From Myxococcota bacterium (GTDB lineage: Bacteria > Myxococcota_A > Polyangia > Polyangiales > Polyangiaceae), in contig JAKLDZ010000010.1 of NCBI GenBank assembly GCA_022703255.1, forward strand, positions 1-34,746: a stretch of 34,746 bases of DNA. The letters are read 5' to 3'. Below the pieces are notes generated by a model that saw only the letters and a program-made list of their open reading frames with translations, did not search any database and was not told where the DNA came from. This document shows, piece after piece, positions 14,475 to 34,746 of this stretch (position 1 is its first letter; every line of letters begins with the position of its first letter). The translations under genes were made by a program, and so were the position numbers.

Positions 14475-14741
14475 CTCCCCGCCTGCCTGTCCCGCCCGCA
14501 TTTCCCATGGTCACCGTCTCGGCGACGGTCTCGGCTCTCTGCCGACGGCCCACGTCGTCGGTCGACCTCGACCGCGCCATCCCGTAGGCGCAGACAATCC
14601 GGCATCGACTCGCGGCACGGGCAACGGACCGTTCCTCACACCCGCGGGACGCCAGATTCTGCTCTCGCGATGGATCGGCGAAGCCTGTGCGTATCCGAAG
14701 TCGGCGAAGACGCGTCGTGCGTTCTGGGCTACGCTTGCGCC

Positions 14742-17412: not shown

Positions 17413-17420
17413 GGCCGGGC

Positions 17421-18848: not shown

Positions 18849-18958
18849 CTGCGCAACGAGAGCTCGGGAAAGGCGCTTCGGGACATCCGGGTCCCCGGAG
18901 TATAGGAGCACCCCCCGCGCCGGCGCAATCGCGGTGGAGCGTTGCCCGTGTCGCCCGC

Positions 18959-19942
18959 TCACCCGAGGAGCTGATCGATCCACGCGCGGGGATCGAGCTG
19001 GAATACCCGGGAGATCCTCAGCTTCCCCGCACAGGTGCACCCTTCGCACTCCGGAAGCGTCAGCCGTGAAAACGCCTTCGCGAACCCCAGCGATCGCGCG
19101 TCCTCCACCGCGCCGCCGCGACCGCTTCCGCAGAAGATCAGCCCTCCGTCGGGCAGCATCGTCGCCGTCACCAGCGCGCAGTGGCACCCGCGAAGCTCGC
19201 CCCGGCTGACCTGCAGATAGTAGAGCAGCTCGGCTCGCGACGTCCCCAGCCAACGCGCCATCGGACTGCGGGATCGCTTCAACGCCAACAGCCTTCGCAG
19301 CGCCGCAGAGAGCTCGATGGGATCGGGCGCCGACGGCTCGCCGCCCGCGGGCCGCGGATCGGCGGCGAGCGGTTGAACGTGGATGCGCACGCCGAGGCTC
19401 GCGGCGTGCTCGAGGACCTCATCGAGCCCTCGCACGTTGTCGCGCGTGATGCAGGTGACCAGCTTCACGGCAATGCCCGCTTCGCGAGCCGCCCGCACCG
19501 CCCGCGCGGCCCGCTCCGCGCTGCCGGCGCCGCGGAGACGATCCTGCAGCGCAGGGGGACCGTCGAGGCTGATCTGCAGCAGATCGAGCTGTCGCAGCGC
19601 ATCGATGCGAGCAGGCACCAGGGCGCCGTTGCTGTTGAGCTTGCAGGCCATTCCGCCGCGCTTCACCGCTTCGACGAGACGACCGATGTCCTCGCGCAGC
19701 AGCGGCTCTCCCCCCGTGAACGACACCAGGCGCACGCGCGCTTCGCGCATCTGCGCGATCATGTCGAGCGCCGCTTCGGTGTCGAGCTCTGGGCAACTGC
19801 GCAGGTCCTTCCAACGGCAGTAAGCACAGTCGGAAGTGCACCGCCCGGTCACGAGCCATGCGACGGCAACCGGGACCGGCTTGTGGTCGAGCTGATAGCG
19901 CATCACGCTGCGCGCCACGGCCAGCTTGCTCTGCAGCTTCAC
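18959..19942 (-). CDS. Radical SAM protein with SPASM-like C-terminal cysteines
   Basis: 327 aa. The GTG at 19942 is chosen because GGGAGG lies just upstream and it overlaps the preceding stop by 4 bases (GTGA). The core motif is C35-T-S-D-C39-A-Y-C42, followed by SFTGGEPLLRED and LDG segments typical of the MoaA/PqqE/NirJ branch. The C-terminal region has C-H-C, then FCGSG, then P-E-C-x-x-C-x-C, a Cys set suited to one or two auxiliary [4Fe-4S] clusters. SPASM proteins often act on peptides or on heme-like and sugar substrates; which applies here is open. It is translationally coupled to the membrane protein upstream. Confidence 0.85.
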   Translation of the reverse strand: MKLQSKLAVARSVMRYQLDHKPVPVAVAWLVTGRCTSDCAYCRWKDLRSCPELDTEAALDMIAQMREARVRLVSFTGGEPLLREDIGRLVEAVKRGGMACKLNSNGALVPARIDALRQLDLLQISLDGPPALQDRLRGAGSAERAARAVRAAREAGIAVKLVTCITRDNVRGLDEVLEHAASLGVRIHVQPLAADPRPAGGEPSAPDPIELSAALRRLLALKRSRSPMARWLGTSRAELLYYLQVSRGELRGCHCALVTATMLPDGGLIFCGSGRGGAVEDARSLGFAKAFSRLTLPECEGCTCAGKLRISRVFQLDPRAWIDQLLG

Positions 19943-21012
19943 GGCGCCTCCCGCGTCGCGTCGTCGGTCGCGATCACTCGGCGTCGGTTGATCATCCGAA
20001 TCGACCAGGGGACTCCGACGATCGCGGGCACGACGTGGATCGACAGCGTCATGAGGGCGCCCACGAAGAACCCTGCCTCCGGCGACACGCCTGCGGGGCG
20101 CAACAGCTCGAGGAGAACTGCCTCGCGAGGACCGGAGCCGGCCAGGAATCCGGGGGCGTAGCCCGCGCACACCGCAGCCGCGCTCGCCGCCATCACGGCC
20201 CGGAATCCGGGATACACGTTCAACGCGGCCAGCAGCGCGTAGCAGACGACCAGCGGCCGCGCCTGGAAGACCACGCCATAACCGAGCAGAGTCAGCTTCC
20301 CCCGCGCCTCGATCCGTCGATAGGGCTCCAGCAGGCTCGCGATCCAACCGCCGAGCTTCGGGTGGAGTCCCGTGCCCCATCGCACCGCGAGCCCGTGTGC
20401 CGGTGTCGCGAAAACCGCGCCGATCCCCACCAGCAGCGCAATCACCAACACTCCGGTGAGCAGTGGCATCAGCCGGGAAATCGCCTCCGGAGCAGCATCG
20501 CCGCGCAGAACGAATCCCGCACCGATGACGAGCCAGAACAACGCTCCCAGGAAGTTGACGCCCTTGTCGAACACGACGGCGCCCGAAGCCCGGACCAGGG
20601 GCAATCCTGCGACGGTCCGAAAGCAGAGCACCTGCATCAGCTCGCCCGAAGCGAACGGCAGCAGGACCCGGGCGGGAGCGGAGGCGAGGCGTACCTGCAG
20701 AGTCTCGCGGTAGCGAATCGGCACGCCCATGGCACGCAGCACGAGGTGGAGCTTGTGGGCTCCGACGATCAGCCCGAAGGTCGCGGAAAGGACGAATACG
20801 AGCGCAACGGTTGCGACATTGGCCTCACGGGCTCCGTGTCGGAAGACCGTGAGATCGATACCGTGCCTGTGCCACACCCAGGCGATGAGCGCGCCGGTCA
20901 GCGCGACACCGGCCACGACGCCCAAACCGTTGCGCGCGACGGACTTTCCTTCCGCGCTGCTCCCTGCGCCCGGATCGGGCGCGCCTGTCTTGTGGAGCGA
21001 GTCCGCGCTCAT
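19939..21012 (-). CDS. UPF0104 / LPG-synthase-like integral membrane protein
   Basis: 357 aa from the ATG at 21012. About seven to eight hydrophobic segments are visible. The family landmarks of the lysylphosphatidylglycerol-synthase transmembrane domain (PF03706/UPF0104) are present: L-P-F-A-S-G-E (the first conserved Glu), VVFDKGVNFLG, and A-P-G-F-L-A-G-S-G-P-R-E-A-V (equivalent to P-G-G-L-G-x-R-E-A). Relatives include HpnL of hopanoid clusters and AglD-type proteins, often linked to lipid or polyprenyl-linked product handling. No cytoplasmic aminoacyl-transfer domain is attached. First gene of the - operon, it suggests the pathway product is lipidic or crosses a membrane. Confidence 0.82.
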   Translation of the reverse strand: MSADSLHKTGAPDPGAGSSAEGKSVARNGLGVVAGVALTGALIAWVWHRHGIDLTVFRHGAREANVATVALVFVLSATFGLIVGAHKLHLVLRAMGVPIRYRETLQVRLASAPARVLLPFASGELMQVLCFRTVAGLPLVRASGAVVFDKGVNFLGALFWLVIGAGFVLRGDAAPEAISRLMPLLTGVLVIALLVGIGAVFATPAHGLAVRWGTGLHPKLGGWIASLLEPYRRIEARGKLTLLGYGVVFQARPLVVCYALLAALNVYPGFRAVMAASAAAVCAGYAPGFLAGSGPREAVLLELLRPAGVSPEAGFFVGALMTLSIHVVPAIVGVPWSIRMINRRRVIATDDATREAP

Positions 21013-21233
21013 GGTCCCGCGGCGCGCGAGCGCGGAGCGGCTCGCGTGAAGGCGGCGGTGGGGAGCGGGGTTCTCGACATCCCCTCCTGAATACCACCGC
21101 CGCACGCCGCTTCTCAATGCGCGATCGGGTGACGCGCACGCGGTGGCGCCCGTTGCGCGGACGCAGGTGCCGTGTTACGCGGATCGGCGTGGATGGGCAG
21201 TGCGCGAGGCAGCAGCGAGCGAAGACCTCCTCG
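21013..21233. promoter_or_regulatory. Divergent control region between the two main operons
   Basis: About 220 bases lie between the start of the - operon (membrane protein) and the probable start of the + operon (DUF362 protein). Both operons must be driven from here. I could not pick confident -35/-10 boxes. The length depends on the uncertain DUF362 start; an ATG at 21117 would shorten it. Confidence 0.35.
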
Positions 21234-22391
21234 GTGTCCGTGCACGATTGCTCGTCGTACGAAGCGTGCGAGGAGCCCCTCGCCTTGGCCCTGCGCACCA
21301 GCGGGCTGCTCGATCATCTCGCGCGCAAGAGGGTGCTGCTCAAGCCCAACATGATGAAGGCCTCGCCGGCGGAGCGGGCCGAGTCCACCCACCCCCGCTT
21401 CGTTGCCGCGCTCACCGCCCTGCTGGTCAACCTCGACTGCGAGGTCCTCGTCGGCGACTCGTCCGGACTGCTCGGCTTCACCCAGGAGGTCCTCGACTCC
21501 ACGGGCATGACCGATGCCGTGCTCCGCGCCGGCGGCAAGGCCGTCAACCTCGATGCCGGCCCGTTCGTGCAGCTAACCGTGGGGGGCAGCGTCCGACGCG
21601 CGCTCTGGGTGCCCAGACTGCTGTTCGAGGTCGATCGCGTGGTGCAGGTCCCCAAGCTCAAGACGCACTCGCTCACGGTGATGTCGGCTGCAGTCAAGAA
21701 CCTGATGGGGCTGTTGCCCGGCGCCACCAAGTGCGATCTGCACGTGCGATTGCCGGGAGCCGCGCCGCTCTGCGGCGGGATCATCGACCTGTGTTGCGCT
21801 CTCGACGACGCCGGGGTGGACCTCGGAGCGGTGGTGGTCGATGGGCTCTGGGGACTCGCGCGCAAGGGGTCTCCCCGTGGGGAGTTGCTGCGCAAGCCCG
21901 AAGTGGTGATCGCATCGCGAAGCCTGTTCGCCGCAGACGTCGTGTGCGCGGAGGTCATGGGCCTGCGTCCGGAAGAGGTGCCCACGATCCGGATTGCGTC
22001 ACAGCGCGGCATCGGCCCCGCGAGCCTCGACGAGGTGGAGGTGGTGGGCAATCGCTGCGCCCTCGGCAAGACCCGATTCGAGCCGGCCTGGCGCGGTCTC
22101 AAGGACCGCGTCGAGACCGCTCACCGATTGCACTACTGGATCCGCGGCAGAACCGTGGAGGTCGTCCACGACCCTTCCCGCTGTCGCTCCGATCACGCGT
22201 GCATCGAGATCTGCCCGGTGCGCTGCATCGACCTTCGCGACGGTCGCGTCCGCATCGGCCCATCGTGCATCCGGTGCTTCGCGTGTCACGCGGCCTGCCC
22301 TCATGGCGCCATCCGCCTGCGGGTTCCGCGGCCGCTGCGTGGCACCTTCGACCGGCGCGCCGCGGGCGTGTCGACGGACAAGCTCGCATGA
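21234..22391 (+). CDS. DUF362 protein with C-terminal two-cluster ferredoxin domain
   Basis: 385 aa from the GTG at 21234, where DUF362 similarity begins (VSVHDCSSYEACEEPLALAL). An in-frame ATG at 21117 would add 39 Arg-rich residues and is less likely; neither start has a strong ribosome site. Residues about 35-290 are DUF362 (LLKPNMM, VPKLKTH, KNLMGLLPG). Residues about 313-360 are a bacterial-type ferredoxin. The second motif is a perfect C345-x2-C348-x2-C351-x3-C355-P. The first reads C317-x2-D320-x2-C323-x3-C327-P with C331 nearby, so an Asp replaces the second Cys. It is a plausible electron carrier for the NifH-like proteins or for the radical SAM enzymes. Its stop overlaps the next start (ATGA). 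Confidence 0.85.
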   Translation: MSVHDCSSYEACEEPLALALRTSGLLDHLARKRVLLKPNMMKASPAERAESTHPRFVAALTALLVNLDCEVLVGDSSGLLGFTQEVLDSTGMTDAVLRAGGKAVNLDAGPFVQLTVGGSVRRALWVPRLLFEVDRVVQVPKLKTHSLTVMSAAVKNLMGLLPGATKCDLHVRLPGAAPLCGGIIDLCCALDDAGVDLGAVVVDGLWGLARKGSPRGELLRKPEVVIASRSLFAADVVCAEVMGLRPEEVPTIRIASQRGIGPASLDEVEVVGNRCALGKTRFEPAWRGLKDRVETAHRLHYWIRGRTVEVVHDPSRCRSDHACIEICPVRCIDLRDGRVRIGPSCIRCFACHAACPHGAIRLRVPRPLRGTFDRRAAGVSTDKLA

Positions 22392-23860
22392 CGCGCGATC
22401 TCGAGACATCGTGGGAGGGTGGGGCATCGCGCGAAGCAGCGCGAGCGGTGTTGATCAACCCCAAGGCCACGTACGCACACGAGATCGCCCAGAAGTGCTT
22501 TCCTCCGCTCGGCCTGCTGTATCTCGCCGCGGCGTTGGATGCTTCCGGCATTCGGGCGCAGGTCATCGATGCGAACGCGCTTCGTCTCGACGTGGCCGCG
22601 ACGGTCGAGCGCGTGCGCCGGGCGTGCCCCGATCTTGTGGGTATGCCGATCCACGCCGAGACGCTGCGTGGGTGTGCGATCCTGTTCCGCGCCCTCCGCG
22701 CGGCGCTTCCGAACGTCGCTCTCGTCGCAGGAGGTCCCCAGGCTTCGGCCGTGCCGGAGTGGGTGCTCCAGCAGATTCCCGAGCTCGACTACGTGATCGC
22801 GGGGGAAGGGGAGACCAGCCTCGTGCGGCTCGTCGGGTGCGTGAAGTCCGGCGCACCCTTGACGGGCATCGACGGGCTGGCCACGCGCGCGGCCCCTGTG
22901 CCTTCGGGAGGTCTTGCGCGGCTCCCCGACCTCGACATGTTTCCGTATCCCGCGCGCTGGGCGGTTCGTGAGGCCTACGATCAGCGGCGCTACTACGCGC
23001 TCATGGTGCCACACCGTCGTATCGAATGCATCGTGACCAGCCGCGGATGCCCCTTTCGATGCGGCTTCTGCTTCAATGCCTCGCGCAAGGTCCGATTCCG
23101 ATCCATCGACCGCTGCTTCGACGAGCTCGAGCGGCTCCGGAGCGATGGGGTGCGCAGCGTGGAGGTGCTCGACGACAACTTCACCGCGAACACCGATCGG
23201 GCGATGGAGTTCTTCGAGCGTCTCGCACGGGAGCGGTGGGGGTTGGCGTTGCGGATCAAGGCGCGCGCGGACTCGATCACGCCGGGGCTGGTGGATGCAG
23301 CGCGGCGCGCGGGAGTCTACCAGGTGAGCCTCGGGGCGGAGTCGGGCGCACCCGAGCTGCTCGCGGCGATGGACAAGCGCATCACGGTGTCGCAGCTCCG
23401 TGACGCTGCGCGCCTGGTGATGGATCGCGGCATCGACTGCCACACGAGCTGGATCATCGGCTATCCGGGAGAGACGCCCGAAACGCTCCTCGCGACGCTG
23501 GCGCTGGTGCGGCAGATGCGTCCCACGACCGCGGGATTCTCGATCCTGGCCCCCTATCCGGGCACGCCGGTGTACGAAGCCGCGTTGCGCGACGGGACCT
23601 TGATGGGCGAGTGGTCCGCGCGCACGGGCGCGGTCCCGTGGATTCGGTTGAGCTGGACGCGCTCGTACGAGGACCTGGTGGCCGCGCGACGCGCGATGAT
23701 GCGCAAGGTGTATCTGCGGCCTCACTATGCGATCGAGTTCTCCCGACGCATCGTGGGCAGCGCGAACCTCATGCTCGCCCGGTATGCCGCGCAGGAGCTG
23801 CGTCGCACGCTCACGCCGCGCAGGCGCGGTCGTGACGCGGACGGCGACCGCACGCCTTGA
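22388..23860 (+). CDS. Cobalamin-binding-type radical SAM protein (copy D)
   Basis: 490 aa. The ATG at 22388 overlaps the DUF362 stop by 4 bases; the same frame is open far upstream, but that part is not protein-like. The B12-like domain occupies about 18-150 (VLINPK, then FPPLGLLYLAAAL; AGGPQAS at 114-120). The radical SAM motif is C221-P-F-R-C225-G-F-C228, followed by V-L-D-D-N-F, a G-A-E-S-G motif, and W-I-I-G-Y-P-G-E-T. It is most like the hopanoid HpnJ/BchE style of class in general architecture, but no substrate can be assigned. It is second in the + operon and is followed 33 bases later by the D-like subunit. Confidence 0.88.
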   Translation: MTRDLETSWEGGASREAARAVLINPKATYAHEIAQKCFPPLGLLYLAAALDASGIRAQVIDANALRLDVAATVERVRRACPDLVGMPIHAETLRGCAILFRALRAALPNVALVAGGPQASAVPEWVLQQIPELDYVIAGEGETSLVRLVGCVKSGAPLTGIDGLATRAAPVPSGGLARLPDLDMFPYPARWAVREAYDQRRYYALMVPHRRIECIVTSRGCPFRCGFCFNASRKVRFRSIDRCFDELERLRSDGVRSVEVLDDNFTANTDRAMEFFERLARERWGLALRIKARADSITPGLVDAARRAGVYQVSLGAESGAPELLAAMDKRITVSQLRDAARLVMDRGIDCHTSWIIGYPGETPETLLATLALVRQMRPTTAGFSILAPYPGTPVYEAALRDGTLMGEWSARTGAVPWIRLSWTRSYEDLVAARRAMMRKVYLRPHYAIEFSRRIVGSANLMLARYAAQELRRTLTPRRRGRDADGDRTP

Positions 23861-23893: not shown

Positions 23894-25765
23894 ATGCGCC
23901 AAGAACCCGCCCCGGCCAGTCGCTCGCCAGACCCGGGCGAAAGCCTGCGGGGGCGGACCCTCACCTGCGGACCCGCCACGCATCGACGCCTCGCGCGCCT
24001 GCTCGGCTTGGATCGCGGCCCGGAGTCCTACGAGATCGCCTCCGCGCTCTGGGTCTCCGATCACCTCGAGATCGAGCTCGTCGCGATCGCCGATCCAAGC
24101 CGGATTTCCCTGGTTCTCGAGGAGACCCGGCCAGAAGGCGCGTTCGTCGCTGGACCCGAGGTTTGCCTCTGGGTTCGTGACTCGAGCGTTCCCCCGCAGC
24201 TCGCTCGCAGGCTGCAAGCCGTGACCCGCCCCTTGCTCGAGCGCCTCGCGCTGTCGGACCTCGAGCGCATGGTCGTCTTGGATCCCGATGCCGCGCCGTC
24301 GGTTCCCGCACGACCCGGGCGCGACGACCCGTCCCCGCAGCCTCCGCTCGAAGGGATATCGATCCCCACGACCGCCGTTCGGGCGCACACCGCACCCGAG
24401 CTGTACGGCGACTTCTTCGCCGCCTCGGAGATTCGTCGCGCCGGCTGCGATCTCATCGACGTGCACAGCGCGCACACGCTCGTGACCCACGGCGACGTCG
24501 AGTGCTCCTACTGCGCGGTCTGCGTCCCGAGCCCCCGCGTCGGCCTCGTGCGCCTGCCCGTCTACGAGACCGTCCGCAACCTCGGCAAGCCGCCCGCGCA
24601 ACACGGAGCGTTCGACGAATCCGAAGACCCTTCGAGCGCGTTCTGCTCGGACATGACCGAGGAGGACGTGATCAAGGGGAGCCCCTCCAGGATGGGCGAG
24701 GTCCTGCGTCACGCCGATCTGCACCGATCCCGGGACAGCCTGCTGGTGGTCGGGCTGTGCCTTCCCGACGTCATCGGAGAAGATCAGGAGTCCGCTGTGC
24801 GTGAGTTCACGCAGACCACGACCACGCCGGTGTTCTCGGTGCCGGCCGCGCCGCGCTCGTGGGCCTGGCTCGCGAAGGATCTCCTGCGGACCCGCAGGCA
24901 GGCGCTACCGCAGCCGGATGCTGCGCAACAACGCGAACCGTCCGTGAACCTGATCGGATTCGCACGCAACGCGGGGAGCGACGAGCTCGTCGAGCTGTTG
25001 GCCACTGCGGGCATCTCGGTCTCGACCTTCCTGCTCCCGGAGCTTGCGATGGACGCGGTCGCCCGGATTTCGCGTGCGGCCGTGAATGTCTATCTCCCCA
25101 ATGTCCACTGGGAGAAGACGTACTCCCATCTGCAGGACGATCCCGGGCGGCGGCATCGGGTGCTCGACGGACCCTTCGGGATGCAGGGAACGCGTCGATG
25201 GATCGAGGAGGTCTGCGCGGAGCTGGCGGTGGAGTGCGACGTGTCCGGGATTCTCTCGGAGCGGGTCGCGGGGCTCGCTCAGCGTTGGGAGGCGTTGCGC
25301 GCCCAGGCCGCGGAGTGCCGGCTCGGGCTCGTGGTGCCCGGCCACGAGGTCGAGACGCTCCTCGACGCCCGTCATTCGTGGGGAATTCCCCTGACGCGCG
25401 TGCTGCGGGAGATGGGGTTCGGGCTGGACCTGATCGTGGGGAGTGAGGCCGGGGCCCGGCTGTTCCGTACTCGCACGACGCTCTCGGAAGCCGACTACAC
25501 GCTAAGCACGTTCAACAGCCTCCCGGATTTGCTGGAGACGTTGCAGGGCAGCCCCTGCCAGGCCGTCTTCTCGAACTACGTCTTCGATTGGCGTCTCGTC
25601 TGCGCAGGCAAGGCCCCGTTCTCCACCCTCGAGTTCGAATACGGCCTTCAGGGTGCCATTGCCACCCTCGAACGCCTCCTCGCGGTGTGCCGTCTCCCGC
25701 TCTTCCGCGCGGGACGCAGGTTCATCGCTCCGGACGTCGGACGGGAAGGTGCCAATGCCGTCTGA
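23894..25765 (+). CDS. Nitrogenase-like catalytic subunit, D-like (set 1)
   Basis: 623 aa; AGGAAGG precedes the ATG. Residues about 160-615 show the nitrogenase component-1 fold signature: T-H-G-D-V-E-C204 (equivalent to the HGP-x-GC cysteine, NifD C88), S-D-M-T-E-E-D-V-I-K-G (equivalent to S-D-F-Q-E-x-D-I-V-F-G-G), V-G-L-C289-L-P-D-V-I-G-E-D (equivalent to the ECP-x-GLIGDD cysteine, C154), and LIGFARNAGSDELVELL opening the second Rossmann domain. No counterpart of the first P-cluster Cys (C62) or of the FeMo-cofactor ligands C275 and H442 was found. Residues 1 to about 155 are an extra domain I do not recognise, ending in a Pro-rich linker. It overlaps the K-like gene by 11 bases. Inferred to be the substrate- and [4Fe-4S]-binding half of an ATP-dependent reductase. 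Confidence 0.85.
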   Translation: MRQEPAPASRSPDPGESLRGRTLTCGPATHRRLARLLGLDRGPESYEIASALWVSDHLEIELVAIADPSRISLVLEETRPEGAFVAGPEVCLWVRDSSVPPQLARRLQAVTRPLLERLALSDLERMVVLDPDAAPSVPARPGRDDPSPQPPLEGISIPTTAVRAHTAPELYGDFFAASEIRRAGCDLIDVHSAHTLVTHGDVECSYCAVCVPSPRVGLVRLPVYETVRNLGKPPAQHGAFDESEDPSSAFCSDMTEEDVIKGSPSRMGEVLRHADLHRSRDSLLVVGLCLPDVIGEDQESAVREFTQTTTTPVFSVPAAPRSWAWLAKDLLRTRRQALPQPDAAQQREPSVNLIGFARNAGSDELVELLATAGISVSTFLLPELAMDAVARISRAAVNVYLPNVHWEKTYSHLQDDPGRRHRVLDGPFGMQGTRRWIEEVCAELAVECDVSGILSERVAGLAQRWEALRAQAAECRLGLVVPGHEVETLLDARHSWGIPLTRVLREMGFGLDLIVGSEAGARLFRTRTTLSEADYTLSTFNSLPDLLETLQGSPCQAVFSNYVFDWRLVCAGKAPFSTLEFEYGLQGAIATLERLLAVCRLPLFRAGRRFIAPDVGREGANAV

Positions 25766-27161
25766 GCCCCTGAGCTGCAACGACGAGGATCTCTCGCTGC
25801 GCGCGACCCTGCCTCGATCCACGGGGTTGTCGTTGGCGGTCAACGCGATCCCCGATGCCTACCTCCTGATCGACGCGCCCCACTGCGCATATCGCCGTCT
25901 CGCGTACGTTCAAGGCAACCACGATCTCGAATCGACACTCGCGCTCGTGCCGGGAGTCCCGAGGGTGACCAACACGGAGCTGTCTCCGCTGAAGGTCATT
26001 CGGAATCGGGATGCGGAGCTGAAGGAGGCGCTGACCGCTCTGGCATCCCACCCTGGCGCCGGCGTGGTGCTCGTGGACGCCGTCGCGATGGCGCTCATCA
26101 CGGCCTCCGACTATGGACGCATCTGCGCCTCGGTATCCGAGGAGACCGCTCGGCCGGTGCTTCCGGTGCCTCACCGCTCGCTCACGGGCGACTGCCTGCA
26201 TGCGTATGCGGAGGTGATGGAGGCGCTGGCCGCCGGCCTCCCCATCGAGAAGCGCTCCGGCGCCGGCCACAAAATCGCGATCGTCGGCCTGCTCTGGGAT
26301 CGGAACGAGGGAGATCTTCGCGGCAATCTCTCGGAGCTGCAGCGCATCGCCGCCGCGCTCGGCCTGGAGCTCGTCGCGACCTGGTTCTCCGGACACCCCA
26401 CGACCGACCTGCTCCGGGTCCAGGAGGCGGACCTCGTGGTGTCGCTTCCCCATGGGCGTCGCGCCGCACGCGAGCTCTCACGCCGTCTCGGTATCCCATC
26501 CATCGCCGCAGAGCTTCCGTTCGGTGTGTCGAGCACGATCCGTTTCGTGCTGTCGATCGGGGCGGCCACGGGACGCTTCGAGGCTGCGCTCGCGTTCGTG
26601 GAGCGGGAGCTTGCGGAGGTGCTGCCCCGGCTCAAGTGGGTGGTCCCCTTCGCGCTGCTGCACCGTCGCCTCGGGTACGTGGGAGACCCCCACCTGTTCC
26701 GCGGAATGCAGGAGATTGCTGCGCTGCTCGGGTGCACTCTCCCCTTCGCCGCGTTCACCAACGTGCCGGCACACGAGCGAGCATCCCGCGAGGTGACCGC
26801 AGGACTCCCCGACGGAATCCCCATTCCCGAGGATGTCTGCGCGTTGGCGATGCTGGAGCCGGCAAAGGCCCCGGACACGCGGCTCGTGTACCCCCACGCG
26901 CGCGAGCTCAACGACACGCTGCAAGGCCTTGCTCGCGCACGCGCCCTGGATCTGCTCGTGACCAACAGCTTCGGGTTCCTCACCGACGGCATCGCGACCG
27001 TGGAGCTCGGATTCCCCTCGTACCACACGCACGCGCTCACCGATCGTCCCTTCCTCGGCATGCGCGGCTTCTTGGGGCTTGCGGAGAGAATGGTCAACGC
27101 GTTGCGGGCCTTCGAGGTCCGCAGTGCGCAAGAGCGAAGCAGGCCTCGAGGTCCCGCATGA
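25755..27161 (+). CDS. Nitrogenase-like catalytic subunit, K-like (set 1)
   Basis: 468 aa from the ATG at 25755 (11-base overlap with the D-like gene, same operon). Family landmarks are: the N-terminal segment LAVNAIPDAYLLIDAPHC44AY (C44 at the HGP-x-GC position), Q-G-N-H-D-L-E-S-T-L, a second Rossmann domain starting KIAIVGLLWDRNEGD, L-V-V-S-L-P, a P-F-G segment (equivalent to I-P-x-G), and a C-terminal T-D-R-P-F-L-G-M-R-G-F-L-G-L-A-E-R-M. The second Cys motif of NifK (TTC-x-EVIGDD) is replaced by a Cys-free stretch (ALITASDYGR). So the pair would offer two Cys from D and one from K, enough for a BchNB-type cluster but not a P-cluster. It has 28 more residues than the set-2 partner. Confidence 0.83.
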   Translation: MPSEPLSCNDEDLSLRATLPRSTGLSLAVNAIPDAYLLIDAPHCAYRRLAYVQGNHDLESTLALVPGVPRVTNTELSPLKVIRNRDAELKEALTALASHPGAGVVLVDAVAMALITASDYGRICASVSEETARPVLPVPHRSLTGDCLHAYAEVMEALAAGLPIEKRSGAGHKIAIVGLLWDRNEGDLRGNLSELQRIAAALGLELVATWFSGHPTTDLLRVQEADLVVSLPHGRRAARELSRRLGIPSIAAELPFGVSSTIRFVLSIGAATGRFEAALAFVERELAEVLPRLKWVVPFALLHRRLGYVGDPHLFRGMQEIAALLGCTLPFAAFTNVPAHERASREVTAGLPDGIPIPEDVCALAMLEPAKAPDTRLVYPHARELNDTLQGLARARALDLLVTNSFGFLTDGIATVELGFPSYHTHALTDRPFLGMRGFLGLAERMVNALRAFEVRSAQERSRPRGPA

Positions 27162-28276
27162 GCCCCCTCGATCCCTGGCTCCTGCAGTCCTCCGTCTGGC
27201 GATGTGTCGAGCACCTGGCCGCCGGCGAGCCCGTGCCGCACCCCATCGCCGTCGAGCTGCACCTCGGCACCACGTGCAATCTCGCGTGCCCCGAGTGCGT
27301 CAGCCGCCCCACCCTCGACACCGCGACCTTCGAGCCCGATCGCGCCCTCGGCGTCGCCCGGGAGCTGGCATCCACCGGTGTCCGGTGCGTGGTCCTCTCC
27401 GGCGGAGGCGAGCCGCTGCTGCACCCGTCCGCCGCGGGTGTCATGGAATCGCTGCACGATGCAGGCGTTTCCCTGGGTCTCGTGACCAATGGCACGCTGC
27501 TGCACCTCCACCTGCAGACCGTCGCCTCCTGCGCCGCACGCATCCGCGTGTCGGTGGATGCCGCGACGGCGGCCACCTACGACCGATTCCGGCCACAACG
27601 GGGAGGCGGGAGCTCGTTCCAGCGGGTGCTCCGCAATCTCGAGCGGATAGCGCCTCTCGCGCACGATCGATTGACGTACTCCTTCGTGCTGCTCACGCGA
27701 CAGGCTGGTGTCGGGGCTCCGGTGGACTCCAATGCAGCGGATCTCGCCGAGGCTGCGGGGCTGGCGAAATCCCTGGGGTGCGCAGCCTTCGAGGTGGGTA
27801 TCGGGCTCGACGCGCGCCTCCAACCCGCCCCATCGCACGCCCACGTTTCCTCCTTGCTGTCCGATCAGCTTCACGCGGCCCTGCAGTGCGCCGACAACGA
27901 CTTCCGCGTGTTCGTCGATCCCATGGTCGCCGATCTTGCTGCAGGTCGCGGCCTGAGGGAGTTCCCTGCGAGAGGCTACGCGCGATGTCCCGCGGCACAG
28001 ATTCGCGCGCTGGTCGGCCCGCGCGGCGTGTCACTCTGCCCGCGACACCAGTGCCTTCCCCGCGCGATCTACGGCGATCCGTGCGTGACGCCGCTGCGCG
28101 AGATCTGGGGCGGCACCGCCTTCCAGGCCGCGATCGCGAGGGTGGATCCGCGCAGCGACTGCACGGGCGCGTGCATGTCCATGCAGCTCAACGACCAGCT
28201 CCTCTGCGCCGTCGATTGGCTGCGCACGCACGGTGCCGCGCCGCCGTTGACCGACGATCACGATCTGTTCATGTAG
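27158..28276 (+). CDS. Radical SAM/SPASM-type protein at the end of the set-1 operon
   Basis: 372 aa; the ATG at 27158 overlaps the K-like stop (ATGA). The core motif is C40-N-L-A-C44-P-E-C47, preceded by V-E-L-H-L-G-T-T. SGGGEPLLHP is the G-G-E motif and LVTNGTLL follows it. The C-terminal domain has C-P, LCPRHQC, G-D-P-C, then L-R-E-I-W, and finally S-D-C-T-G-A-C, a SPASM-like set for auxiliary clusters. It is not NifB: length and core motifs do not fit. Its tight coupling to the D/K pair suggests it acts on the same substrate before or after reduction. Confidence 0.85.
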   Translation: MSPLDPWLLQSSVWRCVEHLAAGEPVPHPIAVELHLGTTCNLACPECVSRPTLDTATFEPDRALGVARELASTGVRCVVLSGGGEPLLHPSAAGVMESLHDAGVSLGLVTNGTLLHLHLQTVASCAARIRVSVDAATAATYDRFRPQRGGGSSFQRVLRNLERIAPLAHDRLTYSFVLLTRQAGVGAPVDSNAADLAEAAGLAKSLGCAAFEVGIGLDARLQPAPSHAHVSSLLSDQLHAALQCADNDFRVFVDPMVADLAAGRGLREFPARGYARCPAAQIRALVGPRGVSLCPRHQCLPRAIYGDPCVTPLREIWGGTAFQAAIARVDPRSDCTGACMSMQLNDQLLCAVDWLRTHGAAPPLTDDHDLFM

Positions 28277-28291
28277 CGGCCCGGCGGCCGC
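28276..28291. terminator. Hairpin between convergent operons
   Basis: GCGGCC, CGGC, GGCCGC: a perfect 6-bp stem starting at the last base of the stop codon of the SPASM gene and facing the convergent nifH-like gene. No T-run follows, so bidirectional termination is only a suggestion. Confidence 0.3.
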
Positions 28292-28343
28292 GTTGCTGCG
28301 CCGTCCTCGATGGCCGCGGATCGTGCGCGCCCGCCCCGTGGGC

Positions 28344-29156
28344 TCAGCGGCGCATGAAGTCGAAGAACGCTTCCTGCTCGAGCGGGGTCGGGCTCGCCAA
28401 CGCCTCCGGATCCAGCGCGAGGACGTCATCCGCGAGTGCTCGGAACGTTCGGGCAACATCCGATTCCGGGGCCATTTCCACCGCGGTCTTCAGCTCCAGC
28501 TCGGCGTCGGAGATCAGCGCAGAGCGCTCGAGCGTCGCCACGACTCGCGTTCCCAAGGCTCGCGCGAAGTCGTCGACCCGTGCGCGACGCGTTGCGTCCG
28601 CGGAGCGGAGGTTGGCCACCAGGCCGGCGAGCACCACGCCGTTGGAGGCGTTGGCGATCACGGCGCGCGCGATGTTGTTGGCCGCAAACAAGGCCATCGA
28701 CTCTTCGGAGACCACGATCAGGACCTTGCGGGCGAACCCCTTGCGCAGCGGCGCGGCGAATCCTCCGCAGACCACGTCGCCGAGCACGTCGAACACCGCG
28801 GCGTCATAGCGTCCGGAATCGAGCAACTGCAGCTCGCCGATGAGCTCCACGGCGCGCGCGACACCGCGCCCTCCGCATCCGGCCCCGGGCTCCGGCCCCC
28901 CGGCTTCGATGCAGTCGATGCCGTTGCGCCCCGGGGTGATGAGCTCGGAGACGTCGAGCTCGTCGGGATCGCGGGAGATCTGCGCGAGGACGGTACGCAC
29001 GACGTGGCGGCCCGTGAGCCTGCAGGAGGAATCGGCCTTGGGGTCGCACCCCACGTGCAATACCCTCATGCCGCGTCGGGCCAGCTCGGCGCTGAGATGC
29101 GTGGCGACCACGCTCTTGCCGATTCCCCCTTTGCCGTAGATGGCGATCTTGTGCAT
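28344..29156 (-). CDS. NifH-like ATPase iron protein (copy 1)
   Basis: 270 aa from the ATG at 29156 with GGAG just upstream. Residues 8-15 are the Walker A G-K-G-G-I-G-K-S, and 36-40 are GCDPK. The two subunit-bridging [4Fe-4S] cysteines are C94 (G-P-E-P-G-A-G-C-G-G-R-G) and C130 (D-V-L-G-D-V-V-C-G-G-F-A). These match true NifH (EPGVGCAGRG; DVVCGGFA) better than BchL or BchX. The last about 30 residues differ from NifH. It is the only gene of its transcript. By position it could serve the set-1 D/K pair, which otherwise has no iron protein in its own operon, although it is on the opposite strand. Role: ATP-driven electron delivery to the catalytic pair. Confidence 0.88.
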   Translation of the reverse strand: MHKIAIYGKGGIGKSVVATHLSAELARRGMRVLHVGCDPKADSSCRLTGRHVVRTVLAQISRDPDELDVSELITPGRNGIDCIEAGGPEPGAGCGGRGVARAVELIGELQLLDSGRYDAAVFDVLGDVVCGGFAAPLRKGFARKVLIVVSEESMALFAANNIARAVIANASNGVVLAGLVANLRSADATRRARVDDFARALGTRVVATLERSALISDAELELKTAVEMAPESDVARTFRALADDVLALDPEALASPTPLEQEAFFDFMRR

Positions 29157-29299
29157 GGCTCCGGGGACCTTCGACGCGATTGCCGGCTCAGGCGCAGACG
29201 CTACCATCGCGAGATCCGGCGTGTCAAGGCGACCGCCGCCCGCATTCCCCGTTTGCGCTTGCGTGGGCTGAGCGCGTCGGGAATACTCCAACCCTCCAC
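29157..29299. promoter_or_regulatory. Shared divergent promoter region of the two nifH-like genes
   Basis: 143 bases separate the two head-to-head nifH-like starts. On the + strand TTGCGT (29259-29264), a 17-base spacer and AATACT (29282-29287) make a weak sigma70-like promoter whose transcript would begin about 6 bases before the ATG at 29300. That start has no Shine-Dalgarno, so a near-leaderless mRNA is plausible. This is inference from spacing only. Confidence 0.3.
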
Positions 29300-30175
29300 A
29301 TGCGCGCCCAACGAATAGCCATCTACGGAAAGGGGGGTATTGGCAAGTCCACCGTGGCTACCAGCCTTTCCGTGCTGTTCGCCATGGCCGGTGACAAAGT
29401 CCTTCATGTGGGCTGCGATCCGAAACGCGACTCCTCCCTCCGGCTGATCGACGGTGCCCCGCGCCCCTCGGTCCTGGAGGCTCTCGAAGCCTGCGGAGAC
29501 CAGATCTCCCCTGACCAGATCGTCTCCGTAGGTCGTCACGGAGTCGAGCTCGTCGAGGCCGGCGGCCCCGAACCCGGAGTCGGCTGCGCCGGCCGCGGCG
29601 TCAGCCTCATGCTCGAACGCCTCGATCAGCTCGGACTCGTCGAGCAGCGCGCCTACGACAGGGTCGTCTACGATGTCCTGGGCGATGTCGTGTGCGGGGG
29701 ATTCGCGGCGCCTCTTCGCAGGGGAATCGGCCAGCGTGTCTACATCGTGACGTCGGAAGAGCCCATGAGCCTCTACGCCGCCAACAATATCGCAAAGGCC
29801 GTGGTCAAGGCCTCCCGAAACGGCGTCTCCCTCGGCGGCCTCATCGTCAACTTGCGCGAACAGGGCGACTTCCGCGCCCCCCTCGAGGCCTTCGCCTCAT
29901 CCCTCGGCACCCGGATCATCGGCACCATCCATCGCGATCCCCTCGTCCGAAAGGCCGAATACCGGTTCGAAACCGTCGTCGAATACGCCCCCAAGGCTCC
30001 CAGCTCCGTGGAGCTCCGCCGTCTCGCCGACGCCATCCGCAATACTCCCCCGCACGCGACATTCCCTCTCCCCACGCCGCTCGACCAGGACGCGTTCGTG
30101 CGGTTCGTGCGCGCCCACCTCGGCGATCGCGACGCGGCCGAGCCCCTCGCCGGGGAGAACGCCGGTGAGCGATAG
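29300..30175 (+). CDS. NifH-like ATPase iron protein (copy 2)
   Basis: 291 aa from the ATG at 29300; upstream in-frame codons are not NifH-like. It has Walker A G-K-G-G-I-G-K-S (10-17), GCDPK (38-42), C96 in VEAGGPEPGVGCAGRG (identical in form to nitrogenase NifH), C132 in YDVLGDVVCGGFA, and Y-A-A-N-N-I-A-K (switch/docking segment). Its C-terminal extension ends in an acidic and Ala-rich tail. The stop overlaps the GTG start of the D-like gene by 11 bases, so it is co-translated with set 2 and is its evident iron protein. It uses strongly C-ending codons, more than neighbouring set 1. Confidence 0.9.
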   Translation: MRAQRIAIYGKGGIGKSTVATSLSVLFAMAGDKVLHVGCDPKRDSSLRLIDGAPRPSVLEALEACGDQISPDQIVSVGRHGVELVEAGGPEPGVGCAGRGVSLMLERLDQLGLVEQRAYDRVVYDVLGDVVCGGFAAPLRRGIGQRVYIVTSEEPMSLYAANNIAKAVVKASRNGVSLGGLIVNLREQGDFRAPLEAFASSLGTRIIGTIHRDPLVRKAEYRFETVVEYAPKAPSSVELRRLADAIRNTPPHATFPLPTPLDQDAFVRFVRAHLGDRDAAEPLAGENAGER

Positions 30176-32048
30176 GGCCGAATCGGTTGCGAGCATCGGG
30201 CCGCTCGACGTCGTCGTGGCGGGCCCCGCCGCGATCCACGCCTTCCACCACATTCTCGGCATCCCTCCAGCGTTGCGCGACACCGGCGCCTGCCGGATCA
30301 CCAGCGTCGTGTGGAAGCGCGGCGCGCTCCAAATCGACCTCGAGGGGCGCGACTTCCGCAGAGCCGTGCTGCGCCTCGAGCAGCACTCCGACGCCCCCGG
30401 GACCGGTCCGCCCCTGATCGTCTCCACCGACGTCCCCCCGGAATCCTTGCACCCCGCGGTCAACCGGATCCTCGGAAGCGTCCGCGCCCGTCTCGCCCGC
30501 ACCCCTATGGCCGGACTCCTCGACCTGATTCGCCGCGATCCAGCGAGCACGCTCCAGACCCCGCCCTCGGAGTCCGACGGCGCTCCAGCGGTGCGAGAAG
30601 GGGTCAATCGGGTCCCCAAACCCTACGCCCATGAGTGGACCGGCAAGCCCGACGAGCTTGGTCCGTGGGGACTCTTCTTCGATGATCTCGTGTTCGTCTA
30701 CACCGCCTTCACCCGCGTCAATTTCGTTCTCCCCACCACCCTCGTCATGCACGGCACCCACGAGTGCCTCTGTGTCACCCCCAAGCTCCGAACCCGCTCC
30801 GCGTGGATCTTCAACCATCCGCGACGCGCCACCTCCCCCACCGCCGAGAAGGTGCGCCGTCGCCTGGGCCTCGGACCGCAACACCTCGACAAGCCCTTTC
30901 GACGTCTGTCGACCGACATGACCGAGCTCGACACGGTTCTGGGCGCAGAGGACAAGCTCGCACGCGCCCTGCGAAGCGCCCTCGCCGGCAACGGCGAGCG
31001 GCTCGTGGGGTTGCACACCACCTGTCTGCCCAAGGTCATGGGCGAAGACGTCGAACGGCCGCTGGAGCTCGTACGCAACGCGCCCCAGGTCCATTGCCTC
31101 TCGAGTTGCATGGGATTCACCCACGACACGAGCCTGTATGCCGAAGAGCTCGAGTTCGGCGACGAGGAATCCGGGGTGATTGCCGCGATGCTCCTACCTC
31201 CCGGGTCTCGCGGTGAGGCCGATCGCGACACCCCCCAGCGCAAACGATTCGACCTGGTGGGCTTTCCCGACGGCGCCGACACGCTCGAGCTGGCGTCCTT
31301 GCTCGAACAGAGCGGGGCCGATCTCGACATGCTGCTGCTGCCCGACATCGACCTCCCTGTCTTCCGACGCACACCCCGTCCTCCAGTCCAGGTGCGATTC
31401 CCCAATCGCTATTACGACCGGATGTACGAGCAGGTATTCGACCGTCTCGCGGATCGCGTGGCGTGTCCCCCGGCGCCCTTCGGCCTCGCCGCCTCCGATG
31501 CCTGGGTGCGCACCGCCGCCTCTGCCCTCGACCTCGACGCTGCCGCCGTGGAGGAAACCCTGCAACGTGCGCGAGAGGCGATTCGCCCACGATGGGAGCC
31601 CCTCGCCGCGATGGCCCGCAACCTGCGGCTCGGCTTCGTCGTCGATCCCCGCGTCCTCCCGCGTCTCGTGGACCCCTCTCGCTCTTTCGGACTCTCGATG
31701 CCCGACATGCTCTCCGAGATGGGCTTCGGCATCGACCTGCTTTGCTATGCTCCCGAAGGCGATGCGTCCTATGCCGAGAGCGCGCTGCGATCCGACCGCA
31801 TCGCGCTGCGCCCCTTCCGCAACCCGGGCGAGCTGCGATCGCTCCTGCGCGACGTTCGCCTCGGCGCGGTGTACAGCGATCGGTGCTTCGAGCGACGCCT
31901 CACCTCCGCCGGAAAGGCCCAGTTCGGATTCGGTGACTTCGAGCTCGGATTCCAGGGCGCCTTGCGTTCCCTCGAGCGCCTGGTCCGAGCGTGCACGCTG
32001 CCCTTCTACGCCCGCTATGCCCGATTCCTCGGGCGAGGTGCTTCATGA
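30165..32048 (+). CDS. Nitrogenase-like catalytic subunit, D-like (set 2)
   Basis: 627 aa. The GTG at 30165 follows GGGGAG and overlaps nifH copy 2 by 11 bases. The core shows M-H-G-T-H-E-C201-L-C203, S-T-D-M-T-E-L-D-T-V-L-G-A-E-D-K-L (very close to the nitrogenase E-x-D-I-V-F-G-G-x-x-K-L motif), H-T-T-C287-L-P-K-V-M-G-E-D-V, and a second Rossmann half starting FDLVGFPDGADTLELASLL. Cofactor ligands of nitrogenase (C275, H442) have no counterpart. Residues 1 to about 150 are an extra domain (about 12-130, then a Pro-rich linker), loosely similar in position and style to that of the set-1 D-like protein but diverged. Predicted large subunit of the second reductase. Confidence 0.86.
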   Translation: MSDRAESVASIGPLDVVVAGPAAIHAFHHILGIPPALRDTGACRITSVVWKRGALQIDLEGRDFRRAVLRLEQHSDAPGTGPPLIVSTDVPPESLHPAVNRILGSVRARLARTPMAGLLDLIRRDPASTLQTPPSESDGAPAVREGVNRVPKPYAHEWTGKPDELGPWGLFFDDLVFVYTAFTRVNFVLPTTLVMHGTHECLCVTPKLRTRSAWIFNHPRRATSPTAEKVRRRLGLGPQHLDKPFRRLSTDMTELDTVLGAEDKLARALRSALAGNGERLVGLHTTCLPKVMGEDVERPLELVRNAPQVHCLSSCMGFTHDTSLYAEELEFGDEESGVIAAMLLPPGSRGEADRDTPQRKRFDLVGFPDGADTLELASLLEQSGADLDMLLLPDIDLPVFRRTPRPPVQVRFPNRYYDRMYEQVFDRLADRVACPPAPFGLAASDAWVRTAASALDLDAAAVEETLQRAREAIRPRWEPLAAMARNLRLGFVVDPRVLPRLVDPSRSFGLSMPDMLSEMGFGIDLLCYAPEGDASYAESALRSDRIALRPFRNPGELRSLLRDVRLGAVYSDRCFERRLTSAGKAQFGFGDFELGFQGALRSLERLVRACTLPFYARYARFLGRGAS

Positions 32049-33367
32049 GCGAAGACCTCTCGCCGCGCCTGGTCCTGTCCCACGCCCTGGGCGCCTATCT
32101 CGCGGTCAATGCCCTGCCCGATTCCCTGATCGTGATGGACGGCAAGGACTGCGTCGTCCAGAAAGCCTCCCAGCTCCAGGGCAATCACGACTGGCAGTCC
32201 ACCCTGGTTTCCAGCGATGGCGCGCACCGCGTCCTCACCACCCACGCCATGCCGGAGGAGGTCTGGAAAGGACGCGAGGACGACGTCGAGCGTGTGCTCG
32301 ACTACGCGATCGCGAGACCCGACGTGCGGGTGATCTTCCTCGGCGCCTCGCGCATGGCCTCCATCACCGAGCCCGCCTACGACATGATCGTGGAGCGTTG
32401 CGCGGAGCGGTCTGGCACCCGCAAGCCCCTCATCGTGCTGCCCACGCGCTCGCTGCTCAACGACTGGCTGCAGGGCTACGCCGATGCGCTCGCCGGCCTC
32501 GCTCGCGCCCTCCCGCTGGAGCAGCGCGATCCCACGGCCGGGCGGCGCGTGGGGATCGTCGGCTACCTGATGGACCGCAACGAGGAGGATCACTTCTCGA
32601 ACCTGCGGGAGCTCGCACGCTTGCTCGAAGGGATCGGCGCGGAGCTCCTGTGCACCTGGCTCGACGGTGGCGATTCCGCTCACCTCTCGTCCATCGGCAG
32701 GGCCGATCTGATCGTCTCCCTGCCCCATGCCCGCGAGGCCGCGAAGGTGATCGCCCAGCGCACGGGCGCGAAGCTGCTGGAGACCGGGCTGCCCATGGGC
32801 CTCGAGGCGACTTCGTTCTGGCTGCACTCCATCGCCGCTGCCCTCGGAACCTCGGAGCGCGCCGAAACCTTCGTCGATCGGGAGCTGGCAAACGCCGTCC
32901 CCAAGCTCGAATGGGTCGTCCAAATGCTGAGCACCGGCGCTGGCATGGCGTTCGTCGGCGACCCGCACCTGCTGCGGGGATTCCTGCGGCTCGCCCGGGA
33001 GCTCGGAATCCGGGTCCCCTTCCGCGGGATTCTCGCCGAGGCGCGGGAAGACCAGCGTGACCTGGTTCGCGACGGCCTCGACGAGCCGACGGTGTTCGTG
33101 GATCCTCGAGTGGGGCAGATGCGCGCTGCGTTCAAGCGCGCAGTGGCGGAACGAGATATCGACCTCTTGATCGCGAGCAGCTACGCCCTCGACGATCTCC
33201 TTCCCGACGTCGCAGCGTTCGAGCTCGGGTTCCCGTCGTTCCACTCGCACGCGCTCACCGATCAGCCCTTTCTCGGCTACCAGGGCTGCCTGTCCCTGGT
33301 GGCGCGCCTGGCGGAGCGCCGCTCGATGCATCAGCTTCTTCGCGCGCCTCGCGCGAGCGACGGCTGA
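32045..33367 (+). CDS. Nitrogenase-like catalytic subunit, K-like (set 2)
   Basis: 440 aa from the ATG at 32045 (ATGA overlap with the D-like stop). It parallels the set-1 K-like protein: AVNALPDSLIVMDGKDC36 (one Cys at the first cluster position), Q-G-N-H-D-W-Q-S-T-L, V-G-I-V-G-Y-L-M-D-R-N-E-E-D opening the second half, L-I-V-S-L-P-H-A, G-L-P-M-G-L-E-A-T, and D-Q-P-F-L-G-Y-Q-G-C-L-S-L near the end. The second NifK Cys motif is again lost (G-A-S-R-M-A-S-I-T-E-P). The shared Q-G-N-H-D motif in both K-like proteins is not one I know from NifK, BchB or BchZ. It is followed 15 bases later by the carbamoyltransferase. Confidence 0.85.
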   Translation: MSEDLSPRLVLSHALGAYLAVNALPDSLIVMDGKDCVVQKASQLQGNHDWQSTLVSSDGAHRVLTTHAMPEEVWKGREDDVERVLDYAIARPDVRVIFLGASRMASITEPAYDMIVERCAERSGTRKPLIVLPTRSLLNDWLQGYADALAGLARALPLEQRDPTAGRRVGIVGYLMDRNEEDHFSNLRELARLLEGIGAELLCTWLDGGDSAHLSSIGRADLIVSLPHAREAAKVIAQRTGAKLLETGLPMGLEATSFWLHSIAAALGTSERAETFVDRELANAVPKLEWVVQMLSTGAGMAFVGDPHLLRGFLRLARELGIRVPFRGILAEAREDQRDLVRDGLDEPTVFVDPRVGQMRAAFKRAVAERDIDLLIASSYALDDLLPDVAAFELGFPSFHSHALTDQPFLGYQGCLSLVARLAERRSMHQLLRAPRASDG

Positions 33368-33382
33368 CGGGACGATCGCGCC

Positions 33383-34746
33383 ATGACGTCTATTCTTGGG
33401 ATATCCGCCTTCTACCACGACTCGGCCGCGGCGCTGGTCGTGGACGGGCGCATTGTGGCGGCAGCGCAGGAGGAGCGCTTCTCGCGCAGGAAGCACGACT
33501 CCGGATTCCCGAAGAAAGCAATCGAGTTCTGCCTCTCCCAGGCGGGGCTGACCGCGTCGGACCTGGACTGCGTCGGATTCTACGAGAAACCCCTCAGGAG
33601 GTTCGAGCGCCTCCTCGACACCTGGCTCTCCGAGGCCCCCCGCGGCTTCACCCAGTTCCTCCAAGCCGCTCCGATCTGGCTGCGGGAGCGCATGTATCCC
33701 GCGCGCCAGCTTCGATCGGGCCTCGGTCCCGGCTACCGGAAACGCTTCGCCTACGTCGAGCACCACGAGTCCCACGCGGCCAGCGCGTTCTTCCCCTCGC
33801 CGTTCGACGAGGCCGCGATTCTCACCCTCGACGGCGTGGGAGAGAGCGCGACTGGAACTCTCGGCTCCGGGCGCGGTCATCGCATCGAGCTGACCCACGA
33901 GCAGCGCTTTCCCCACTCCCTTGGGCTGCTGTATTCGGCGTTCACCTACTACACGGGCTTCCGCGTGAACTCCGGGGAATACAAGCTCATGGGGCTCGCC
34001 CCCTACGGGGTTCCCCGCTACGCAGACCGGATCCTGGAGCGCCTGGTCGACGTGAAACCCGACGGGTCGCTGCGGCTCGATCTTTCCTACTTCAACTATT
34101 GCCGCGGATTGACCATGACCTCTGCGCGGTTCCACAGCCTCTTCGACGGGCCCCCGAGGAAGCCGGAGTCGCCGATCACCCAGCGGGAAAAGGATCTCGC
34201 CGCGTCGATTCAGGCGGTGACCGAGCAGATCGTCCTCCGGAGCGCACGGCACCTGCGTGAGTTGACAGGGCTCGACCGGCTCTGTCTCGCAGGGGGAGTC
34301 GCGCTCAATTGCGTGGCCAACGGCAAGCTGCTTCGGGAGGGAACGTTCCGCGACATCTGGGTTCAGCCCGCGGCGGGCGACGCCGGCGGAGCCCTGGGAA
34401 CCGCGCTGTTCCTCTGGCACCAGCTGATGGGCCGGGAGCGACGGCCCGATCCTTTGGATTCCATGAGCGGCGCGCTGCTCGGTCCGGGCTACGAGGACGC
34501 CGCGATCCGACGCGCTCTCGAGGCGATCGGACTGCGGTATCGGACATTCGAGGACGACACGTCGCTCTGCGCGTTCGCCGCGGAGCTCATCGCGAGCCAG
34601 AAGGTGATTGGGTGGTTCCAGGGACGCATGGAGTTCGGTCCGCGTGCCCTCGGTGGCCGTTCGATCATCGGTTGTCCGAGCGTGCCGGGCGTGGCTGACC
34701 GCATCAATGCGCAGATCAAGTTCCGCGAGCGCTGGAGACCCTTCTG
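33383..34746 (+). CDS. NodU/CmcH-family carbamoyltransferase (3' end beyond window)
   Basis: The ATG at 33383 lies 15 bases after the K-like stop; 454 codons are visible and the frame is still open at the edge. N-terminal landmarks are G-I-S-A-F-Y-H-D-S-A-A-A, QEERFSRRKHDSGFP (29-43), HHESHAASAFF (127-137) and ILTLDGVGE (146-154). Later come G-E-Y-K-L-M-G-L-A-P-Y-G, CLAGGVALNC, and GWFQGRMEFGPRALGGRSI of the C-terminal domain. The family makes carbamoyl-adenylate from carbamoyl phosphate and ATP and moves the carbamoyl group to a hydroxyl of a sugar or natural product. Its place in the set-2 operon suggests the product carries an O-carbamoyl group, or that carbamoylation activates an intermediate. 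Confidence 0.9.
   Translation, partial: MTSILGISAFYHDSAAALVVDGRIVAAAQEERFSRRKHDSGFPKKAIEFCLSQAGLTASDLDCVGFYEKPLRRFERLLDTWLSEAPRGFTQFLQAAPIWLRERMYPARQLRSGLGPGYRKRFAYVEHHESHAASAFFPSPFDEAAILTLDGVGESATGTLGSGRGHRIELTHEQRFPHSLGLLYSAFTYYTGFRVNSGEYKLMGLAPYGVPRYADRILERLVDVKPDGSLRLDLSYFNYCRGLTMTSARFHSLFDGPPRKPESPITQREKDLAASIQAVTEQIVLRSARHLRELTGLDRLCLAGGVALNCVANGKLLREGTFRDIWVQPAAGDAGGALGTALFLWHQLMGRERRPDPLDSMSGALLGPGYEDAAIRRALEAIGLRYRTFEDDTSLCAFAAELIASQKVIGWFQGRMEFGPRALGGRSIIGCPSVPGVADRINAQIKFRERWRPF

Follow-up and report, generated by a model that had tools for sequence, protein, structure and literature searches.

Two pairs of NifD- and NifK-like proteins, encoded by an uncultured member of the Myxococcota, are best explained as parts of ATP-driven reductases with one [4Fe-4S] cluster and an organic intermediate as substrate. 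We consider this account probable. The genes lie in a window of 34,746 nucleotides, which is the whole stretch of DNA analysed. It forms contig C2 of a metagenome-assembled genome (MAG) of 6.29 Mb, which is fragmented and 74% complete.

Briefly, there would be two paralogous ATP-dependent nitrogenase-like reductases, H1 presumably working with D1K1 and H2 with D2K2. ATP hydrolysis by a NifH-like dimer would drive electrons to a (DK)2 heterotetramer. One [4Fe-4S] cluster is predicted at every D/K interface, at the site of the alpha half of the P-cluster. Two D cysteines (NifD C88 and C154 sites) and one K cysteine (NifK C95 site) would be its ligands. With no FeMo-type cofactor present, the cluster would hand its electrons directly to an organic substrate in the cavity, which is also how protochlorophyllide reductase works. 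Gene order suggests that the substrate is probably a product of the adjoining radical SAM enzymes. The two pairs may carry out two reductions, like DPOR and COR of bacteriochlorophyll synthesis.

Gene organisation and radical SAM neighbours

All four D and K proteins exceed the Pfam gathering cut-off for PF00148 (28.6 bits). Hence, D1, K1, D2 and K2 belong to the nitrogenase component 1 superfamily (Table 1). H1 and H2 both contain the P-loop GKGGIGKS and the cluster cysteine motifs G.GC.GRG and GDVVCGGF. The P-loop and two cluster cysteines identify them as members of the NifH/BchL/CfbC Fe protein family. H2 opens an H2-D2-K2 operon, and gene order is the same at locus L064. The NodU-type gene begins 15 bases past K2 and leaves the contig end. 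The start of a radical SAM gene overlaps the K1 stop. Further upstream, the DUF362-ferredoxin protein is a possible electron donor.

Table 1. Positions of genes and ligand codons in the window.
Feature	Position	Strand	Remarks
HipA-like kinase	7972-9267	+	Likely no relation to cluster
KamA-family radical SAM aminomutase	9800-11599	-	TIGR00238 above cut-off; candidate cluster member
B12-binding radical SAM gene	14670-16121	+	PF04055/PF02310
B12-binding radical SAM gene	within 16126-17640	-	PF04055/PF02310
B12-binding radical SAM gene	within 17421-19253	-	PF04055/PF02310
SPASM-type radical SAM gene	about 18959-19946	-	PF04055
Lysylphosphatidylglycerol synthase-type membrane protein	19939-21117	-	Between radical SAM genes and DUF362 gene
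DUF362 protein with C-terminal ferredoxin domain	21117-22391	+	PF04015 131.6 bits; Fer4
B12-binding radical SAM protein	22388-23860	+	Lies before D1; top NCBIfam model BchE at 161 bits against cut-off of 481
D1, NifD-like subunit, 623 aa	23894-25765	+	PF00148 95.7 bits; AF2 pLDDT 77.7
D1 E179 codon, candidate fourth ligand	24428-24430	+	Carboxylate near NifD C62 site; placement approximate, pLDDT <50
D1 C204 codon	24503-24505	+	
D1 C289 codon	24758-24760	+	
K1, NifK-like subunit, 468 aa	25755-27161	+	PF00148 113.1 bits; AF2 pLDDT 86.5
K1 C44 codon	25884-25886	+	Sole cluster Cys of K1
Radical SAM protein	27158-28276	+	SPASM-type resemblance; PF04055 44.7 bits
H1, NifH-like Fe protein	28344-29156	-	TIGR01287 265.6 bits, below equivalog cut-off
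H2, NifH-like Fe protein	29300-30175	+	TIGR01287 275.3 bits, below equivalog cut-off
D2, NifD-like subunit, 627 aa	30165-32048	+	PF00148 65.7 bits; L064 ortholog 726 bits
D2 C201 codon	30765-30767	+	
D2 C287 codon	31023-31025	+	
K2, NifK-like subunit, 440 aa	32045-33367	+	PF00148 141.4 bits
K2 C36 codon	32150-32152	+	Sole cluster Cys of K2
NodU-type O-carbamoyltransferase	33383-34746	+	PF02543 327 bits

Seven of the 72 radical SAM hits in the genome fall within the window, against 0.40 expected by length. At related loci, 42 of 114 neighbouring proteins match Radical_SAM. A frame with a radical SAM-type motif directly follows the K stop in 14 of 29 testable cases (one of them weak).

Cluster ligands kept and lost

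An earlier sequence-only reading claimed that D keeps two cluster cysteines (C204/C289 in D1; C201/C287 in D2) and K one (C44 in K1; C36 in K2). We confirmed that the codons are present and assessed conservation by aligning relatives within each family, 48 for D and 55 for K. The residues equivalent to D C204 and D C289 are each invariant (48/48), as is K C44 (55/55). No further universal cysteine occurs in either set. The invariance of this pattern marks it as a family trait rather than chance. If these were degenerate, non-functional nitrogenase gene copies, that could explain why half of the P-cluster ligands are gone, together with the cofactor ligands. However, the frames are intact, the residues are invariant across divergent genomes and the operons are conserved, with up to five paralogs per genome. 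We find degeneration scarcely credible.

Profile references for NifDK, NifEN, BchNB and BchYZ were drawn from annotated plasmids. In nearly all profile alignments, D1 C204 and C289 fall at the NifD C88 and C154 sites and on their BchN and BchY counterparts. One exception was a global alignment with NifD and NifE, which put NifD C62 on D1 C204. This was ruled out; the local version and all other alignments give C88. The other exception was a failed global BchY alignment. Additional D cysteines were considered as ligands and rejected. Residues C185, C207 and C210 of D1, near C204, lack conservation. C599 is present in 43/48 D proteins but is C-terminal, away from known ligand sites.

K C44 occupies the position of NifK C95, BchB D36 and BchZ C35. 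Profile alignments with BchZ, NifD and BchN put C44 at the C95 site, and alignment with NifK+NifN does so within one residue. Structures were predicted for D1 and K1 as single chains. The best match to the K1 AlphaFold model is BchB (Z 34.5, rmsd 3.3, 408 residues), and this comparison (model 11-463 on chain 1-419) also puts C44 at the C95 site. Intermediates of the L101/L102 type, reading 'DAPVGC...NHD' and 'HASVGCKVKT...HD' (HD being a family motif), tie C44 to C95. Conversely, the NifK-only profile alignment placed C44 on NifK C70, and the BchB profile alignment placed BchB D36 on K N55 or Q53; the BchB+BchZ profile was likewise off. We rejected the NifK-alone and BchB registers as mis-registered, since they conflict with the intermediates, with the K1 model and with the alignments to NifK+NifN, BchZ, NifD and BchN. 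Hence, the kept cysteines are three of the six P-cluster ligands, equal to the alpha-half set minus C62.

The D1 model has a confident N-terminal part (residues ~20-130) and then a poorly predicted linker. Residues 1-160 make up an N-terminal region, and the nitrogenase-type domain spans about 163-611. This domain matches MarD and NifD (Z 17-21), and NifE is a further match for D1.

Counterparts of NifD C62, C275 and H442, and of NifK C70 and C153, had been sought by eye and not found. Alignment bears this out. NifD C275 corresponds to D1 P402, a conserved proline, and NifD H442 to D1 Y583, placed by a GxxG motif. NifK C70 corresponds to K1 P20 and NifK C153 to K1 A111, where 45/55 relatives have proline. 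Neither of the two results that would have overturned the earlier claim was obtained. Neither Cys nor His occupies the C275 and H442 cofactor sites, and the pairs keep three of the six P-cluster cysteines of Mo, V and Fe nitrogenases. In addition, no nifB was found above cut-off in the genome and no NifEN among its eight PF00148 hits, with the MAG 74% complete. Taken with the missing FeMo-cofactor ligands and half set of P-cluster cysteines, this makes N2 fixation by these pairs unlikely.

Spacing and structure both put the NifD C62 site at D1 residues 178-180, where there is no cysteine. Profile placements of C62 span D1 162-176; none is on a cysteine except the mis-registered NifD+NifE one. 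We place C62 near E179 because D1 178 meets NifD 58-60 in several structure alignments (local confidence <50). The E179 column is Glu in 38/48 D proteins. D2 has Val there and Asp at neighbouring positions 176 and 177. Across D positions 176-179, Asp or Glu is found in 46/48 proteins and Cys in one of the remaining two, so 47/48 have Asp, Glu, Cys or His. No single residue is invariant at the C62 site among the 48 D proteins. Acidic residues are at least as frequent in about 20 further four-residue windows of D; hence, the carboxylate is a candidate only. Conservation points to further candidates in D E203 (46/48, Asp otherwise) and K D57 (55/55). Most likely, the fourth position is taken by a carboxylate on this turn of the helix or else by a non-protein ligand. 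An open-iron cluster without a carboxylate would be equally compatible with these data. Structure alignment to BchB and NifD, of the kind proposed earlier for finding the fourth ligand, puts K C44 at the C95 site and C62 near E179; the ligand itself is a candidate.

Comparison with known nitrogenase-like systems

The cluster had been likened to that of BchNB, with three cysteines plus Asp. Three cysteines do fit a single [4Fe-4S] cluster; the layout differs. BchLNB (DPOR) resembles the present systems in its H-D-K type, its fold, its one cluster at the alpha-half site and its lack of FeMo-cofactor. However, all three BchNB cysteines are in BchN (29, 54 and 115 in the Roseobacter copy), and BchB supplies D36 at the C95 site. 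Here, D has two cysteines and K one, the C62 site is not Cys, the clade is separate and D has an extra N-terminal region. Scores are below the DPOR equivalog cut-offs TIGR01279 (D1, 48 of 420 bits) and TIGR01278 (K1, 29 of 490). Both the family and the radical SAM context make the earlier proposal of an organic-substrate reductase reasonable as an inference.

BchXYZ (COR) offers two likenesses: K C44 aligns with BchZ C35, and two systems acting in sequence would be a parallel. Conversely, BchY keeps all three cysteines and its clade is separate. The COR set of four cysteines, three in Y and one in Z, was not found in these pairs, which also fall below the COR equivalog cut-offs. For CfbCD, scores against TIGR03282 were 21-22 bits, with a cut-off of 268; CfbCD has no K subunit, and these pairs include a K gene.

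In NifEN, a single cluster occupies the alpha-half site. Among the reference profiles, D scores highest with the scaffold protein NifE (95.6 bits), ahead of NifD (63 bits) and BchN (38 bits). Hence, a NifEN-like scaffold or maturase is the main mechanistic rival. DK and H would then build an Fe-S cofactor, or pass one to radical SAM enzymes, and reduce no metabolite. The adjoining radical SAM genes and the presence of NifE among the top PDB hits agree with such a role. However, NifEN has a cysteine at the C62 site, leaving the NifE-type set short by one here. There is no C275-site cysteine but a conserved proline, no nif genes were found in the 74% complete genome (no nifB above cut-off), and K is structurally closest to BchB. 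We judge a scaffold function unlikely and prefer the reductase.

The isethionate reductase IsrHDK, from group IV of the nitrogenase-like enzymes, keeps part of the P-cluster cysteines, lacks C275 and H442, and works with a radical SAM partner (PMC11423573). It is the nearest precedent for a partial ligand set combined with a radical SAM partner. The distribution differs: IsrHDK has one cysteine in D and three in K, whereas two are in D and one in K here. The methylthio-alkane reductase MarHDK carries nitrogenase metalloclusters (PMC12552129). Its fold is similar, and the D1 model matches MarD. However, Mar has the full P-cluster ligand set, of which three of six remain here.

Group VI of the Elusimicrobiota, like our pairs, comprises uncharacterised nitrogenase-like systems in a radical SAM context. 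Meheust in 2020 is reported to have located group VI among radical SAM genes. Later papers describe group VI as putatively concerned with tetrapyrrole cofactor biosynthesis (PMC9391474, PMC11257099), and the presence of an active-site cluster is debated (PMC12176620). The pairs could be these published paralogs, acting in tetrapyrrole modification, and no new clade; a reductase would be compatible with that assignment. However, no recognisable tetrapyrrole synthesis family is among the 25 commonest neighbour families per list. Group VI membership is possible but seems doubtful to us.

Family, sister clade and distribution

When D and K sequences were placed in joint trees, the family's D proteins formed one group (support 100) and its K proteins another (99-100), distinct from NifD/E, NifK/N, BchN/Y and BchB/Z. 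These trees, made by a quick method and with the root not fixed, took in Nif and Bch references but no CfbD, Mar, Isr or group VI proteins. A sister clade, joined to the family with support 99 for D and 99 for K, occurs in other genomes of the phylum and has a short D of ~450 residues. Sister D proteins have a cysteine exactly 26 residues before the C88 site in 7/7 cases, which is the NifD spacing of C62. Sister loci L102-L109 have four candidate cluster cysteines, three in D and one in K. Two sister proteins that were scanned fell below every NCBIfam equivalog cut-off. Since NifD, BchN, BchY and the sister clade all keep the C62 cysteine, its loss is the simplest reading. The window's D family probably lost this cysteine and gained ~160 N-terminal residues.

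Loss of C62 could also mean that a site-differentiated, three-cysteine [4Fe-4S] cluster binds substrate at an open iron, as catalyst rather than electron relay. The cysteine is missing only in the window's family, and no invariant residue replaces it. However, a carboxylate or cysteine lies on the same helix turn in 47/48 D proteins, and BchNB is a precedent for Asp as fourth ligand. We regard catalysis at an open iron as quite improbable, and retain the cluster as electron relay.

The long D protein occurs in 23 of 284 genomes of the window's phylum. Related loci are in MAGs labelled Myxococcales, Bradymonadales, Deltaproteobacteria and similar, and H-D-K operons recur across named Myxococcota MAGs. 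A Bradymonadales MAG (L041) has orthologs of D1K1 together with the radical SAM gene, and ADurb.Bin207 (L064) has those of H2D2K2. Long-D/K proteins are absent from 20 other listed genomes of the window's own family. Such patchy spread, with none in the taxonomic family and up to five copies in distant families, suggests transfer or loss; mis-binning is less likely.

Other nitrogenase-like genes are present in the same genome. A third pair of long D and K lies on contig C102 (L010, 3358-8454), with radical SAM genes adjoining. On contig C463, a NifH-like gene stands alone, accompanied by two radical SAM hits. On contig C18 (L009, 2465-5881, +), a 1139-codon frame encodes two NifH domains and then a NifD-like domain. 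It is followed by a K-like frame, a TonB receptor, a periplasmic binding protein, a FecCD permease and an ABC ATPase. L009 is apparently a different nitrogenase-like system with H-H-D fused.

We conclude that the D/K pairs are an unclassified family in uncultured Myxococcota, set apart from NifDK, NifEN, BchNB and BchYZ. Group VI membership is the main threat to the family's novelty. Tentatively, the pairs may represent an unnamed superfamily branch in which D has an added N-terminal domain and has lost C62. Its members would be reductases with a three-cysteine, site-differentiated [4Fe-4S] cluster, working in tandem with radical SAM enzymes on a natural product. Substrates are known for just a handful of nitrogenase-like enzymes. 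The cysteine layout found here, in several uncultured Myxococcota lineages, is unlike any described type that we checked. The sister clade, keeping the C62 cysteine, provides a natural before-and-after comparison of a change at the cluster site, and the presence of radical SAM neighbours indicates a pathway that could be reconstituted.
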